This document shows, piece by piece, positions 14,559-19,518 of a stretch of 64,000 nucleotides of DNA. The position numbers were made by a program, and so were the translations under genes. The notes beneath the pieces were generated by a model, which did not search any database, had not been told where the DNA came from, and saw only the letters and a program-made list of their open reading frames with translations. Source of the stretch: Azospirillaceae bacterium (lineage in GTDB: Bacteria > Pseudomonadota > Alphaproteobacteria > Azospirillales > Azospirillaceae); NCBI GenBank assembly GCA_031291675.1, contig JARLIO010000085.1:62001-126000 (forward strand). The letters run 5' to 3'. Within the stretch, counting starts at the first letter, position 1, and every line of letters starts with the position of its first letter.

Positions 14559-14693
14559 ATGACGAAAACCCTTTTTGTCGAGGCATCGAACCCTATGTTA
14601 ATGACGGCGGCGGCCTCTGAATCCCCGACCGATGGCAGGGACTGGTGTGACATTGGCAGCGGAATTGGTCAGGGAGAGGGAGGGTTGCCTTGA
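14559..14693 (+). CDS. 44-residue small ORF, coupled to the next gene
   Basis: This short frame begins at ATG 14559 behind a strong Shine-Dalgarno sequence ('AAGGGGG', 14547-14553). It encodes 44 residues beginning 'MTKTLFVEASNPMLM'. Its TGA (14691-14693) overlaps the TTG start of the next gene (14690-14692) as TTGA, the arrangement of coupled genes. No family is recognised. It could be a leader peptide controlling the flavoprotein gene or a real small protein; the strong ribosome site and the overlap are the evidence. Confidence 0.5.
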   Translation: MTKTLFVEASNPMLMTAAASESPTDGRDWCDIGSGIGQGEGGLP

Positions 14694-16087
14694 AGGCGTT
14701 AAAGCCTTTGGTCATTGCCGGTCGTGAAGTCTTGCCCCTGATTGAAGGCGGCAAAGGAATTTCCGTTTCCAATGGCGAGAGTTCGGGCGCATGGGCTGCG
14801 GCCGGCGCGATCGGGACGTTTTCCGGCGTCAATGCCGACAGTTTCGATCCGGATGGCCATCCTGTGCCCCAGGCCTATCGCGGGAAGACCCGGCGCGAGC
14901 GCCAGCAGGAACTGGTGGCGTTTTCGATCCAGGGCGGCATCACGCAGGCGCAAGTCGCCCATGAGCAGTCGCGCGGCCAGGGCCGGATCCACATGAATAT
15001 CCTGTGGGAGATGGGCGGGGCCGAAACCATCCTGCACGGCGTGCTGGAAGGCGCCCGCAACCTGATTCATGGCGTCACCTGCGGTGCCGGCATGCCGTAT
15101 CGCATCGCCGAGATCTGCGCCCATTACAATGTCCATTATTATCCGATCGTCAGCTCGGCACGGGCGTTCCGGGCCCTGTGGCTTCGGGCCTATCACAAGT
15201 TCAGCGCGATGCTGGGCGCGGTGGTCTATGAGGACCCCTGGCGCGCCGGCGGCCATAATGGTCTGTCCAACAGCGAGGATCCGGAACGACCGGAAGATCC
15301 GTTCCCGCGGGTTCTCGCGCTGCGCCAGATGATGAACAGCTTCGGGCTTGCCACGACCCCGATCGTGATGGCCGGTGGGGTCTGGTATCTGCGCGAATGG
15401 ACGGACTGGGTCGACAATCCGGACCTCGGCCCGATCGCCTTTCAGTTCGGGACCCGGCCGCTGCTGACCCAGGAAAGCCCGATCGCCCTGGCGTGGAAGA
15501 AGAAGCTGTTGAGCCTGAAGGCCGGTGACGTGTTCCTGAACCGCTTCTCGCCCACCGGATTCTACTCGTCGGCGGTCAACAACCGGTTCATCCAGGAGCT
15601 GCGGGAGCGTTCCGAGCGCCAGGTCGCCTATCTTCAGCATCCGGTCGGCGAACATGTCGCAGAATTTCCGGTAGGGCCGCGTGGCCGTCCGGTGTATTTG
15701 AGTCCGGGTGAGAAGGCACGGGCTGAAGGCTGGATTGCCGCCGGTTTCACCGAGGTCCTCAAGACCCCGGAGAATACGCTTGTTTTTGTGACGCCGGAAC
15801 GGGCGGACCAAATTCTGCGGGATCAAATCGGTTGCATGGGCTGTCTTTCTGCTTGTATTTTCAGCAATTGGGCTCAGAACGAGGCCGGAACGACGGGGAA
15901 AAAGGCCGATCCCCGCAGTTTTTGCATCCAGAAGACGCTGCAGGCGATCAGTCATTCGGATGATTGTGACAACCAGCTCATGTTTGCCGGCCACAACGCT
16001 TATCGATTCGCCGACGACCCGTTCTACGCGGGTGGCTTTATTCCGACTGTCGGGCAATTGATTGAGCGTCTGCAGACAGGTGATTGA
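14690..16087 (+). CDS. nitronate monooxygenase family flavoprotein
   Basis: The 465-residue protein belongs to the NAD(P)H-dependent flavin oxidoreductase / nitronate monooxygenase group (COG2070), with a TIM-barrel pattern including 'GVTCGAGMPYRIAE', 'WRAGGHNGLSN' and 'TPIVMAGGVWYLREWTDW'. It is longer than the usual 320-380 residues; the extra C-terminal part holds 'GCMGCLSAC' (about residues 382-390) and two later cysteines, which might bind a metal or Fe-S cluster. Translation starts at TTG 14690, supported by 'GGGAGAGGGAGG' just upstream. The exact substrate is not known. Confidence 0.75.
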   Translation: MKALKPLVIAGREVLPLIEGGKGISVSNGESSGAWAAAGAIGTFSGVNADSFDPDGHPVPQAYRGKTRRERQQELVAFSIQGGITQAQVAHEQSRGQGRIHMNILWEMGGAETILHGVLEGARNLIHGVTCGAGMPYRIAEICAHYNVHYYPIVSSARAFRALWLRAYHKFSAMLGAVVYEDPWRAGGHNGLSNSEDPERPEDPFPRVLALRQMMNSFGLATTPIVMAGGVWYLREWTDWVDNPDLGPIAFQFGTRPLLTQESPIALAWKKKLLSLKAGDVFLNRFSPTGFYSSAVNNRFIQELRERSERQVAYLQHPVGEHVAEFPVGPRGRPVYLSPGEKARAEGWIAAGFTEVLKTPENTLVFVTPERADQILRDQIGCMGCLSACIFSNWAQNEAGTTGKKADPRSFCIQKTLQAISHSDDCDNQLMFAGHNAYRFADDPFYAGGFIPTVGQLIERLQTGD

Positions 16088-16210: not shown

Positions 16211-16672
16211 ATGAACCGACTGCGACCCTTTACCGCCATCCTTGATCGGCTCCAGCAGGCCGGGTTGCGTCCGACGCGTCAACGTCTCGGTCTGGCCCGG
16301 CTGCTGTTTCAACACGGCGACCGGCATATCACAGCCGAACAGCTGCATGCGGAGGCTATGGCCGCCAACCTCAAAGTGTCGCTGGCGACGGTCTATAACA
16401 CCGTCAACCAGTTCACCGCGGCCGGGTTGCTGCGTGAGGTCGTCGTCGACTCCGGGCGTTCCTATTTCGACACCAACATGAGCGAGCATCACCATTTCTT
16501 CCTCGAGGAAAACGGTGAGCTGCACGATATCCTGGATCAGAACCTGCTGATCGGCGCCCTGCCGGCGCCACCGCCGGGAACCGAGGTGACCCGGGTCGAT
16601 GTCATCATCCGCGTGCGGTCGCTCGATGTCCCGGAGCAGGAATCGGCTTTCGTTGAAAACCAGTGCGTTTGA
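16211..16672 (+). CDS. irr: iron response regulator Irr (Fur family)
   Basis: The 153-residue protein is a Fur-family regulator: the winged helix shows 'LRPTRQRLGLARLLF' and 'SLATVYNTVNQF', and the metal/haem region has 'SEHHHFFLEENGELHDI'. The triple histidine followed by 'FFLE' is typical of Irr rather than Fur or PerR. In alphaproteobacteria Irr is active under low iron and binds ICE motifs to control iron storage, haem and peroxide-defence genes. An ICE-like site lies in front of the next gene, rubrerythrin, which strongly supports both calls. There is no N-terminal haem-regulatory Cys-Pro motif. Confidence 0.88.
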   Translation: MNRLRPFTAILDRLQQAGLRPTRQRLGLARLLFQHGDRHITAEQLHAEAMAANLKVSLATVYNTVNQFTAAGLLREVVVDSGRSYFDTNMSEHHHFFLEENGELHDILDQNLLIGALPAPPPGTEVTRVDVIIRVRSLDVPEQESAFVENQCV

Positions 16673-16678
16673 GCGCAG

Positions 16679-16695
16679 TTTAGAATTCTTCTGAT
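16679..16695 (+). promoter_or_regulatory. Irr-box (ICE) upstream of rubrerythrin
   Basis: The sequence 'TTTAGAATTCTTCTGAT' matches the ICE consensus TTTAGAA-N3-TTCTAAA at 12 of 14 defined bases. It stands 3 bases upstream of a good -35 box. The site is directly downstream of the irr stop codon and upstream of rbr, so Irr most likely controls rbr; the position upstream of -35 fits activation or a mild block. Confidence 0.75.
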
Positions 16696-16698
16696 TTG

Positions 16699-16727
16699 TT
16701 GACTTCTCGCAGCCCAGGGTGCATAAG
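16699..16727 (+). promoter_or_regulatory. promoter of the rubrerythrin gene
   Basis: TTGACT (16699-16704) and CATAAG (16722-16727) are separated by 17 bases and fit a sigma-70-type promoter. It lies about 95 bases before the rubrerythrin start and next to the Irr-box. Confidence 0.6.
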
Positions 16728-16819
16728 CGTCAGGCGGTTTGTTACTTTCATGGCGGTGGTCCGTCGGTTCAACAAACGGCCATCGCTCAATAAGCCCCAT
16801 TAACGCCAAGGAGGTCACC

Positions 16820-17236
16820 ATGTCGTTCAAGGACTCCAAGACTGTCGAGAACCTGAAGGCCGCGTTTTCCGGCGAGAGCCAGGCCAACCGGCGCTATTTG
16901 TATTTCGCACAGAAGGCGGACATCGAAGGCTACAACGACGTCGCTGCGGTGTTTCGCTCGACGGCCGAAGGTGAGACCGGCCATGCCCACGGCCATCTGG
17001 AATTCCTCGAGGAGGTCGGTGATCCGGCAACCGGTGAGCCGATCGGCGACACCAAGCTCAATCTGAAGGCCGCCATCGCCGGCGAAACCCACGAATATAC
17101 CGACATGTATCCGGGTTTCGCCCGGACCGCCCGTGACGAGGGATTCGACGAAATCGCCGAGTGGTTCGAGACCCTCGCCAAGGCCGAAAAGTCGCATGCC
17201 GGCCGGTTCCAGAAGGCTTTCGACACCCTGTCGTAA
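16820..17236 (+). CDS. rubrerythrin (ferritin-like domain only)
   Basis: The 138-residue protein is a rubrerythrin-type four-helix bundle with di-iron ligands in '[15 protein letters not shown]', '[13 protein letters not shown]', '[15 protein letters not shown]' and '[11 protein letters not shown]'. No C-terminal rubredoxin domain (two Cys-x2-Cys pairs) is present, so it is the short 'erythrin' form. Rubrerythrins reduce hydrogen peroxide or store iron. The Shine-Dalgarno 'AAGGAGG' at 16808 fixes the ATG at 16820. An Irr-box in front indicates iron-dependent expression; the Fe-S oxidoreductase and DUF3501 genes behind it form the usual cluster. Confidence 0.92.
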
Positions 17237-17521: not shown

Positions 17522-18883
17522 ATGCGCGAAGGTAGCCTTGAGTCTCCGATTCGGCACCCGATCGACTGGCAAGACCCCAATTTTACTGACGAAGCCGCGA
17601 TCGATGCCGAACTGCGGCGTGTCTTTGATATTTGTCATTCCTGTCGCCGATGCTTCAATCTTTGTGACAGCTTTCCCCGTCTGTTCGATCTGATCGACGC
17701 GACATCGTCCGGGGAACTTCAGGAGGTGCCATCGGCCGATTTGAAGCCGGTGGTCGATGCCTGTACCCTGTGCGACCTGTGCTTCATGACCAAGTGCCCC
17801 TATGTTCCGCCGCACCAGTTCGACCTGGACTTCCCCCATCTGATGCTGCGCTACCGCGCGGCGGCGTTCAAACGGGGCGAGGTTTCCTTCGTCAATCGCC
17901 AGATGACCGAGACCGACCGCAATGGCAGCCTGGCCCGTCCGGTGGCGAAACTGGCCAATTGGGCGACGGACACCGCCAACACGGTGACCCGGCCGTTGCT
18001 GGAAAAGGCCGCCGGCATCCATCGCGAGGCGCATCTGCCGAAATTCAACGGCCGAACCCTGACCTTGCGGGCCAAGACCGAATCCGTTCCCGTCGATCGC
18101 ACCGCCCCGGCCGCCGGGCGCAAGGCGGTGCTCTATGCCACCTGCTTTGCCAACTACAACAATCCTTCGATTGGCCTGGCAACCCAGGCGGTGCTGGCCC
18201 GCAATGGCGTCGAGACCGAGGTGCTTTATCCCGGTTGCTGCGGCATGCCCCAGCTCGAACAGGGCGATCTGGCCCGGGTCGCTGCCAACGCGATCAAGGT
18301 TGCCGGTGCCCTCGAACCCTGGATCGATCGCGGCTACGACATCATCGCCCTGGTCCCCAGCTGTGCCCTGATGATGAAATTCGAATGGCCGCTGCTGGTG
18401 CCGCGCCATGCGCCGGAGCTGGCCGCGGTCCGCAAGCTGGCTGAAGCCACGTTCGACGTCAGCGAGTATGTGGTCAGCATCGCCAAGCGGGAGGGCCTGG
18501 CCCCCGGCCTGAAACCGCTCGACGGTGGTGTGACGCTGCATATCGCCTGTCACGCCCGGGCCCAGAATATGGGCCAGAAGGCCGCGGAGATGCTGCGCCT
18601 GCTGCCCGAGCCCGACGTCAAGGTCATCGAGCGCTGCTCGGGCCATGGCGGTTCCTGGGGCGTGCTGAAGGAAAATTTCCCCACCGCGCTGAAGGTCGGC
18701 AAGCCGGTCGCCGCCCAGGCGGTCAAGAATCGCAAGAATTTTGTCGCCTCGGAATGTCCGCTGGCCGGGGCGCACATCCTGCAGGGCATGGAACGGATCG
18801 ACGAAGACAAGATCATTCCCGCCGAGGCCCGGCACCCCATCGAGTTGTTCGCCCGTGCCTATGGCATCACCCTGGCGACATGA
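17522..18883 (+). CDS. Fe-S oxidoreductase with CCG domain (GlpC/HdrD-like)
   Basis: The 453-residue protein has two N-terminal 4Fe-4S motifs, 'CHSCRRCFNLC' (near residue 38) and 'CTLCDLCFMTKCP' (near 80). Two C-terminal cysteine-rich segments follow: 'YPGCCGMP' and 'CHARAQNMG...CSGHGG' with the CCG pattern altered to CSG. It resembles the iron-sulfur subunit of heterodisulfide reductase and glycerol-3-phosphate dehydrogenase GlpC. Such proteins sit beside rubrerythrin and DUF3501 genes in many proteobacteria and may pass electrons to rubrerythrin; this is inference. 'AAAGGAAAGG' precedes the ATG. Confidence 0.85.
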   Translation: MREGSLESPIRHPIDWQDPNFTDEAAIDAELRRVFDICHSCRRCFNLCDSFPRLFDLIDATSSGELQEVPSADLKPVVDACTLCDLCFMTKCPYVPPHQFDLDFPHLMLRYRAAAFKRGEVSFVNRQMTETDRNGSLARPVAKLANWATDTANTVTRPLLEKAAGIHREAHLPKFNGRTLTLRAKTESVPVDRTAPAAGRKAVLYATCFANYNNPSIGLATQAVLARNGVETEVLYPGCCGMPQLEQGDLARVAANAIKVAGALEPWIDRGYDIIALVPSCALMMKFEWPLLVPRHAPELAAVRKLAEATFDVSEYVVSIAKREGLAPGLKPLDGGVTLHIACHARAQNMGQKAAEMLRLLPEPDVKVIERCSGHGGSWGVLKENFPTALKVGKPVAAQAVKNRKNFVASECPLAGAHILQGMERIDEDKIIPAEARHPIELFARAYGITLAT

Positions 18884-18924: not shown

Positions 18925-19518
18925 ATGGCTCCGCGTAAAACCGAGATCACCCGTGACGACATTCTGCCGCGCGATCGCTATCTTGAGATCCGCGACGCGC
19001 GTCGCAAGGCGGTCATCGAGCTCAAGCGTCACCGGCGCCTACCGGTCGGTCCCCACGCCACCTTCTATTTCGAAAACTACGACACGATGTGGCTGCAAAT
19101 CCACGAGATGCTGCGCGTCGAAAATGGTGGCGAGGAGCAGATCATCGACGAGCTGCGCGCCTACAATCCGCTGGTGCCCAAGGGCGATGAACTCGTCGCC
19201 ACCGTGATGATCGAAATCGACGATCCGGACCGCCGCAACGCGCTGTTGTCCCGCCTGGGCGGTCTGGAAAACCATTTCTTCGTGCAGATCGGCAACGACA
19301 CGATTACCGCGGTTCCCGAGGACGATGTCGAGCGGACCAACGCCGACGGCAAGGCGTCATCGGTCCATTTCGTCCATTTCCGCTTCACCGCCGAACAGAT
19401 CGCGCAATTCCGCACGCCGGAGGAGCGGATCCTGGCCGGAATCGATCACCCGCAATATGCCCATATGGCGGTGATCCCCGAGGAAACCCGGAGCGCACTC
19501 GCCGAAGATCTCGACTGA
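18925..19518 (+). CDS. DUF3501 family protein
   Basis: The 197-residue cytosolic protein matches the DUF3501 family, which almost always lies next to rubrerythrin and an Fe-S CCG protein. Family features are 'RHRRLPVGPHATFYFENYDT' and 'RVENGGEEQIIDELRAYNPL'. The function is unknown; a shared role in peroxide or iron defence is inferred from context. 'AGGAGAAG' lies 8 bases before ATG 18925. An in-frame ATG at 18880 overlaps the upstream stop as ATGA, so a longer form is possible. Confidence 0.85.
   Translation: MAPRKTEITRDDILPRDRYLEIRDARRKAVIELKRHRRLPVGPHATFYFENYDTMWLQIHEMLRVENGGEEQIIDELRAYNPLVPKGDELVATVMIEIDDPDRRNALLSRLGGLENHFFVQIGNDTITAVPEDDVERTNADGKASSVHFVHFRFTAEQIAQFRTPEERILAGIDHPQYAHMAVIPEETRSALAEDLD

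Follow-up and report, generated by a model that had tools for sequence, protein, structure and literature searches.

The locus described here raises the question of whether the iron response regulator Irr controls the gene next to its own and, if so, in which direction. In the window, that is, the whole stretch of 64,000 nucleotides from an Azospirillaceae bacterium analyzed in this work, irr is followed on the same strand by a rubrerythrin gene (rbr), and a sequence resembling an Irr box lies in the gap between them (Table 1). Irr has been described chiefly as a repressor that acts on iron-handling genes at low iron, and the consensus of the Irr box, or ICE, is the palindrome TTTAGAA-N3-TTCTAAA.

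Table 1. Features of the irr-rbr locus, numbered from the first base of the window
Feature	Position	Strand	Basis
irr, FUR-family iron response regulator Irr (153 aa)	16211..16672	+	NCBIfam IrrA and Irr models; stop codon ends at 16672
Irr box (ICE), TTTAGAATTCTTCTGAT	16679..16695	+	12/14 against TTTAGAANNNTTCTAAA; box also kept in the irr-rbr gaps of relatives
-35 hexamer, TTGACT	16699..16704	+	Starts at +20 from box start; 5/6 consensus bases
-10 hexamer, CATAAG	16722..16727	+	4/6; spacer of 17; no T at position 6
AAGGAGG ahead of the rbr ATG	16808-16814	+	Window sequence
rbr, rubredoxin-less (aerobic-type) rubrerythrin (138 aa)	16820..17236	+	Pfam Rubrerythrin; ATG at 16820
RFO-type Fe-S oxidoreductase (CCG domain, GlpC-like), module gene 2	17522..18883	+	Pfam CCG above cut-off
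DUF3501 protein, module gene 3	18925..19518	+	Pfam DUF3501, 214 bits; 18925 is an in-frame ATG, start provisional

A probable Irr box abuts the promoter of rbr

Reading the window sequence downstream from the box, we found 3 bases (TTG), TTGACT, 17 bases, and CATAAG. The original prediction had given a match to the ICE motif in 12 of its 14 defined bases and a distance of 3 bases between the box and a TTGACT-N17-CATAAG promoter, and both statements were exact. Its description of this promoter as good was right for the -35 hexamer but generous for the -10 hexamer; the rbr promoter was absent from the output of a strict promoter scan of the window, because the scan demands the last T of the -10 hexamer, which CATAAG lacks. 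Transcription of rbr would start at about 16734, and the center of the box would then lie some 47 bases ahead of this point. The box is located at the promoter of its presumed target gene, 3 bp ahead of the -35 hexamer and at a conserved spacing, and it overlaps neither the -10 hexamer nor the start point. No other window site comes within 3 mismatches of the consensus, and a box in the position typical of mbfA was not found here.

Across the 64-kb window, TTTAGAATTCTTCTGAT is the sole site within 3 mismatches of the consensus. Shuffled versions of the window averaged 0.17 sites of this kind, with at least one site in 16 of 100 shuffles, so the box is mildly unusual at the scale of the whole window. 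At the scale of the 160-base irr-rbr gap, 2 mismatches were reached in none of 3,000 dinucleotide shuffles. The original prediction had also proposed a genome scan for further ICE sites, and in a pattern search of the whole genome (5.87 Mb) 6 places with no more than 2 mismatches were obtained versus 1 for the reversed pattern. When the box and TTGAC were searched together at the window spacing, 2 mismatches were attained at the window site only and 3 mismatches at one other place in the genome, and the reversed control with the same spacing yielded 0 places. The two mismatches of the window box both fall in its right half, and its affinity may thus be lower.

Two other boxes of this genome were noted during the search. 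One, with 2 mismatches (L008, G000:C64:20724-20740), lies about 350 bases ahead of a frame that resembles CydA (cytochrome bd) and is named by sequence only, and the other, TTTAGAATTATTCTTAT (L009, G000:C88:481731-481747), lies about 160 bases ahead of a 58-codon, secreted-looking open reading frame. Autoregulation of irr through an upstream box was considered and rejected: a box with no more than 2 mismatches was present within 250 bases before the irr match in just 9 of 175 loci, and the window holds no second site of up to 3 mismatches, showing that a box upstream of irr is not a general feature.

The box is flanked by irr and an aerobic-type rubrerythrin module

The upstream gene had been called irr in the original prediction, and this identity was confirmed by two curated NCBIfam models, both equivalogs, for which the protein scored 214.2 bits (IrrA; cut-off, 150) and 192 bits (Irr; cut-off, 170). 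Its HXH heme-ligand motif corresponds to residues 93 to 95, of which H93 and H95 are invariant in all 175 aligned Irr proteins. The window Irr lacks the heme regulatory motif (CP[WFY]) and has a single Cys, near the C terminus; CP[WFY] was found in none of the 175 Irr sequences, the N termini of which were set at the nearest start and may be short. The Irr protein of Rhizobium leguminosarum lacks the heme regulatory motif or its action. That of Rhodobacter sphaeroides is also described as devoid of the motif in the available text (PMC3413700), and its absence is therefore compatible with Irr membership. It is doubtful that the window Irr would be degraded by the Bradyrhizobium route.

The other two FUR proteins of the genome, both available as partial frames, matched best with the Fur and Zur models, below cut-off, and the PerR model was passed by none of the three FUR proteins, two of which were scanned as such partial frames. 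Just 5′ of irr, a nitronate-monooxygenase-like gene occupies 14690 to 16087 of the window, and 64 of 175 irr loci likewise have a relative upstream of irr in the same orientation, within the stretch read.

Downstream of the box, the rbr product matched Pfam Rubrerythrin with 110 bits over residues 10 to 133, and it gave nearly full-length matches to short rubrerythrins of solved structure, 9onm (140 aa) and 4di0 (144 aa), and to sulerythrin. The product of the second gene matched GlpC models below cut-off. A FUR-family regulator gene reportedly adjoins a rubrerythrin gene in the perR-rbr operon of Desulfovibrio vulgaris as well. That arrangement combines PerR with a rubredoxin-type rubrerythrin, whereas the window has Irr, a separate promoter between the two genes, and an aerobic-type rubrerythrin.

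The combination of RBR, RFO, and DUF3501 has been described as the aerobic-type rubrerythrin module, from which the name RFO is taken (Cardenas 2016, PMC5114695). The window genes fit this description, with a rubrerythrin free of a rubredoxin domain and with RFO and DUF3501 adjacent to it; likewise, RFO and/or DUF3501 follow rbr in 122 of the 140 loci in which rbr lies close behind irr, within the stretch read. What the window adds to the published module is the Irr operator. The available text of PMC5114695 contains none of the words "irr," "perr," "regulator," and "promoter," and "fur" occurs in it 5 times at the start of a word, words such as "further" included.

The box is conserved between irr and rbr in relatives

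Matches to the window Irr were found in 52 of 59 relatives at an E value of 0.001, a count that includes FUR paralogues; of 289 genomes from the class, 167 had a match at 1e-30. Among the matches listed, 175 irr loci were read, one per genome (L010 to L184), and rbr was present within 1,200 bases behind irr in 140 of them. Among the 35 remaining loci, rbr lies farther off in L030; in the other 34 the stretch read, sometimes cut short by a contig end, yielded no rbr match. The 140 loci include six weaker rbr-like matches (L047, L049, L059, L064, L083, and L105; 58 to 69% identity), all of them boxless.

The best box in the gap had no more than 2 mismatches in 78 of the 140 loci and no more than 3 in 102, and no box within 3 mismatches was detected in the other 38 irr-rbr gaps. 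For the reversed pattern, the same gaps gave 0/140 with up to 2 mismatches and 3/140 with 3 mismatches, while 20 rounds of dinucleotide shuffling of the gaps gave means of 0.3 (maximum, 1) and 1.35 at the two thresholds. Within the family to which the window belongs, rbr lies behind irr in 21 of 33 loci, and a box within 3 mismatches was present in 11 of these 21 gaps and absent from 10. With the box conserved so far beyond chance and the upstream protein identified as Irr, the claim of the original prediction that irr and rbr belong to one circuit is supported: the comparison agrees, at the level of sequence, with a box that is part of the rbr promoter.

To describe the surroundings of the box, loci with a box of up to 3 mismatches and an rbr identity of at least 70% were aligned on the box, giving 102 loci, or 99 after removal of near copies. 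Since these loci were selected by the box, its own conservation in the profile is conditioned, but that of the -35 and -10 elements is not. In the 99-locus profile, the palindrome is wider, TW-N-TTTAGAATNATTCTAAA-N-TA, with a small extension on both sides, and a TTGAC peak at +20 to +24, counted from the box start, is followed by a stretch rich in A/T at approximately +42 to +48, to which the offset of the window -10 hexamer approximately corresponds. Among the 102 rbr loci, TTGAC (at least 4 of 5 bases) starts at +20 in 56, +21 in 16, +22 in 8, +23 in 5, and +19 in 3, a total of 88. The spacing in the window, +20, is thus the commonest.

Four further irr places lie outside the 175-locus set (G104, G195, G184, and G279). 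One of these extra loci, L203 (G184), shows the order irr, box, rbr with 1 mismatch; in two others, L202 and L204, rbr is missing from the roughly 2 kb that follow irr, and in L205 (G104) a contig edge is located just behind irr. Of two small genomes, possibly of SAR11, irr runs into a contig end in G042, and no rbr was found within the 6 kb read in G057. In G056, irr likewise has no rbr in 5.5 kb.

The rbr box and the mbfA box occupy different positions

A comparison is offered by mbfA (blr7895, annotated as rubrerythrin-like), the gene for an Irr-repressed iron exporter, which shares with rbr a rubrerythrin-like domain and a role in peroxide and iron handling. MbfA is a membrane exporter, whereas the window protein is a 138-aa rubrerythrin that scored 24 bits with the MbfA model, versus a cut-off of 450. 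The ICEs of Bradyrhizobium and Rhodobacter (hmuR-hmuT, mbfA, bfr, and ccpA) have the same palindrome, TTTAGAA-N3-TTCTAAA, as the rbr box, and the wider rbr palindrome is similar in length to the 21-bp ICE reported in the available text of PMC5599777.

The mbfA set consisted of 40 loci read of 50 places (12/193 and 40/61 genomes, two of them shared; ten places without a locus). Box positions were measured relative to where the model match begins, and L220 lies at a contig end, so its upstream region was probably misread. A box with no more than 3 mismatches was present before mbfA in 30 of the 40 loci, at a distance of 33 to 108 bases from the model match in 29 and of 151 bases in one. It follows a -10-like YTA(G/A) element, with no TTGAC peak at +20. 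TTGAC was found at +19 to +23 in 88/102 rbr loci versus 2/30 mbfA loci (Fisher P = 5e-16, uncorrected for relatedness). Thus, the rbr box mostly lies 3 bp from the -35 hexamer, upstream of the promoter and beside irr, and the mbfA box lies elsewhere, by its sequence context around the -10 hexamer or the start point. In line with this, the 5′ end of the R. sphaeroides mbfA transcript maps inside the box, and Irr lowers mbfA expression, although no major role in the iron response of the gene is assigned to it by the authors in the available text (PMC3413700). The mbfA gene of the window's own genome (L195, G000:C66:82781-83734) lacks a recognizable box over 220 bases upstream of the model match, the best site there having 5 mismatches, though mbfA is a classic Irr target.

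In five genomes searched for hemP/hmu, three rhizobial hemP loci were obtained, two with 3-mismatch boxes and one with none within 4 mismatches, without TTGAC at +20. The hmuR region was therefore discarded as a positive-control geometry, the three loci being too few and their boxes too weak to calibrate the sign of control.

A gene-independent scan finds the same unit before rbr and other genes

The exact pattern of box, N3, and TTGAC was then searched in one genome per species across 84,980 species, and 80 of the 86 matching stretches were listed and read. Among these 80 matches, rbr was the commonest downstream gene (36), followed by genes of the NifU type (22), KatG (3), MbfA (3), VIT1-like (2), and peroxiredoxin (1) groups, and 13 had none of these, matching no probe within 450 bases. 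The names of the non-rbr groups come from reading of translated starts, with no model matches behind them. At least 6 of the 80 listed matches carry titles outside Alphaproteobacteria. Among the 36 rbr matches listed, irr lies directly upstream in 32, and 14 bear Pelagibacteraceae titles. A second box (up to 4 mismatches, at +25 to +95) was present in 3/36 rbr, 1/22 NifU-type, 1/3 KatG, and 1/1 peroxiredoxin matches and in all five MbfA and VIT1-like matches listed.

The other groups showed arrangements of their own. In the NifU-type group (L239, L244, L252, and 19 more), the box, 3 bp, and TTGAC precede a NifU-like gene instead of rbr in contigs whose titles name Rhodobacteraceae, Paracoccaceae, or genera belonging to this group; the protein start, MFIQTESTPNPATLKFLPGQ, is one that we take to be NifU domain-like, and a link of Irr to Fe-S cluster delivery through these loci is possible. 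In L291 and L304 a KatG gene, and in L271 a peroxiredoxin gene, takes the place of rbr immediately downstream of irr, again with this operator, and a second box overlaps the -10 hexamer in L304 and L271. Two boxes are present in the MbfA and VIT1-like promoters (L243, L254, L255, L276, and L286; Afipia, Bradyrhizobium, and others): the first adjoins the -35 hexamer, and the second lies 46 to 51 bases farther, approximately where transcription would start. In a Streptococcus catagoni contig (L236), the pattern matched tandem box-like repeats before a P-type ATPase gene, a promoter that is probably a PerR target; Irr and PerR boxes are alike in sequence.

Irr may activate rather than repress rbr

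Might the box belong to another regulator, or to none? It could be read by a Fur/Mur-like or Zur-like paralogue instead of Irr, as the boxes of FUR-family proteins are similar to one another, the motif resembles those of PerR, and the pattern reached the Streptococcus ATPase promoter. We regard this as highly improbable, since irr itself stands directly upstream in nearly all of the listed rbr matches, the same motif precedes the known Irr target mbfA in most loci read, and no FUR protein of the genome (two as partial frames) passed the PerR model. Nor is there much likelihood that the window copy is a chance or decayed site that no longer binds. Such a loss would fit a match of only 12/14, with both mismatches in one half, and the boxless gaps in about half of the same-family loci; against it stand the shuffles of the window gap, which never reached 2 mismatches, and the exact coincidence of box and -35 hexamer with the commonest spacing. 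The arrangement of box and promoter can hardly have arisen by chance, and, judged from these comparisons, the site has a very high probability of being a genuine Irr operator for rbr. It would represent an old operator at the promoter of the rbr-RFO-DUF3501 module for the product of the adjacent upstream gene.

The original prediction, of iron-dependent rubrerythrin levels, names no sign for the control. The rbr box lies upstream of the -35 hexamer, and the boxes of Irr-repressed mbfA lie elsewhere. Rudolph in 2006 is said to have associated an ICE over the -10 hexamer or start point with negative control. Apo-Irr binds the ICE and acts as a repressor or an activator depending on ICE location (available text of PMC7762939), and a promoter-upstream 21-bp ICE of hmuT/hmuR confers positive control at low iron (available text of PMC3836376). 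The rbr box is promoter-upstream and seldom accompanied by a second one, which favors activation at iron or heme shortage, and given a real operator we consider activation the somewhat more probable sign. Apo-Irr, present at iron or heme shortage, would then bind right against the -35 hexamer and activate rbr. The cell would thereby obtain a peroxidase that needs no heme at a time when heme enzymes cannot be produced, and the activation would cease once Irr is lost, at high heme or with peroxide. Taken as a whole, this reading, a real operator together with activation, is assigned a probability of about 0.52.

In the opposite arrangement, Irr would repress rbr at low iron by crowding the -35 hexamer, and its removal by heme or peroxide would release the gene. 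PerR controls rubrerythrin and catalase genes elsewhere by such release. Available passages of the literature agree with it in several respects: in Bradyrhizobium japonicum, mbfA and bfr are Irr-repressed, and both heme and exposure to H2O2 lead to degradation of Irr (PMC4902296); an irr mutant of R. sphaeroides has raised mbfA and withstands peroxide better (PMC3413700); and Irr amounts fall under oxidative stress in Dinoroseobacter shibae (PMC8007024). A fall of Irr under oxidative stress also argues against activation, as an activated peroxidase would then drop when it is needed, and so does the well-conserved -35 hexamer, which is unlike that of a promoter needing help. The three genes for KatG (2) and peroxiredoxin (1) that take the place of rbr downstream of irr and this operator, two with an additional box across the -10 hexamer, point toward repression as well, as do the five MbfA and VIT1-like loci in which the box and TTGAC are accompanied by a second box farther down. 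Unlike mbfA, however, rbr has its box upstream of the -35 hexamer and seldom a second one, and rbr of SAR11 rose rather than fell on iron limitation (available text of PMC2864753). Repression thus retains considerable weight at rather below even odds.

The SAR11 value deserves a closer description. In "Candidatus Pelagibacter ubique," rbr (SAR11_0399) was up 1.57-fold (P = 0.025), a small change, on iron limitation, and in the same study the irr and fur transcripts tracked stationary phase rather than iron (available text of PMC2864753). The comparison is made at the family level, with the operator read in the 14 Pelagibacteraceae loci and the expression value taken from SAR11_0399. Under sulfur limitation, rbr mRNA of this organism was at 0.17-fold and the protein at 2.24-fold (available text of PMC5069961), opposite changes indicating that the control of SAR11 rbr is not simple.

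Implications

Irr boxes themselves are already known, and what is new here is a box of this kind at rbr, a target that is widely conserved. A description of an irr-rbr operator was not found in a literature search; an earlier prediction in Rodionov 2006, the likeliest prior source, is possible.

As a tentative proposal, to which we give somewhat less than an even chance, Irr would also be a dedicated activator of a neighboring gene, that of a non-heme peroxidase module, in a large part of Alphaproteobacteria, Pelagibacteraceae included. It would operate a heme-sparing switch by which rbr is made when heme for catalases and heme peroxidases is short, with the rigid unit of box, 3 bp, and TTGAC also serving before NifU-type genes in Rhodobacteraceae. 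With a real operator at rbr, whatever its sign, Irr would gain a core target beside its own gene, from Pelagibacteraceae to the family of the window, and iron and heme sensing would be joined to the aerobic-type rubrerythrin module, the control of which is absent from the 2016 description. The locus would also allow the rule that links the sign of Irr action to box position to be tested cleanly. The box has been kept in place in many relatives, which suggests that peroxide defense in these bacteria is tied to the supply of iron and heme.
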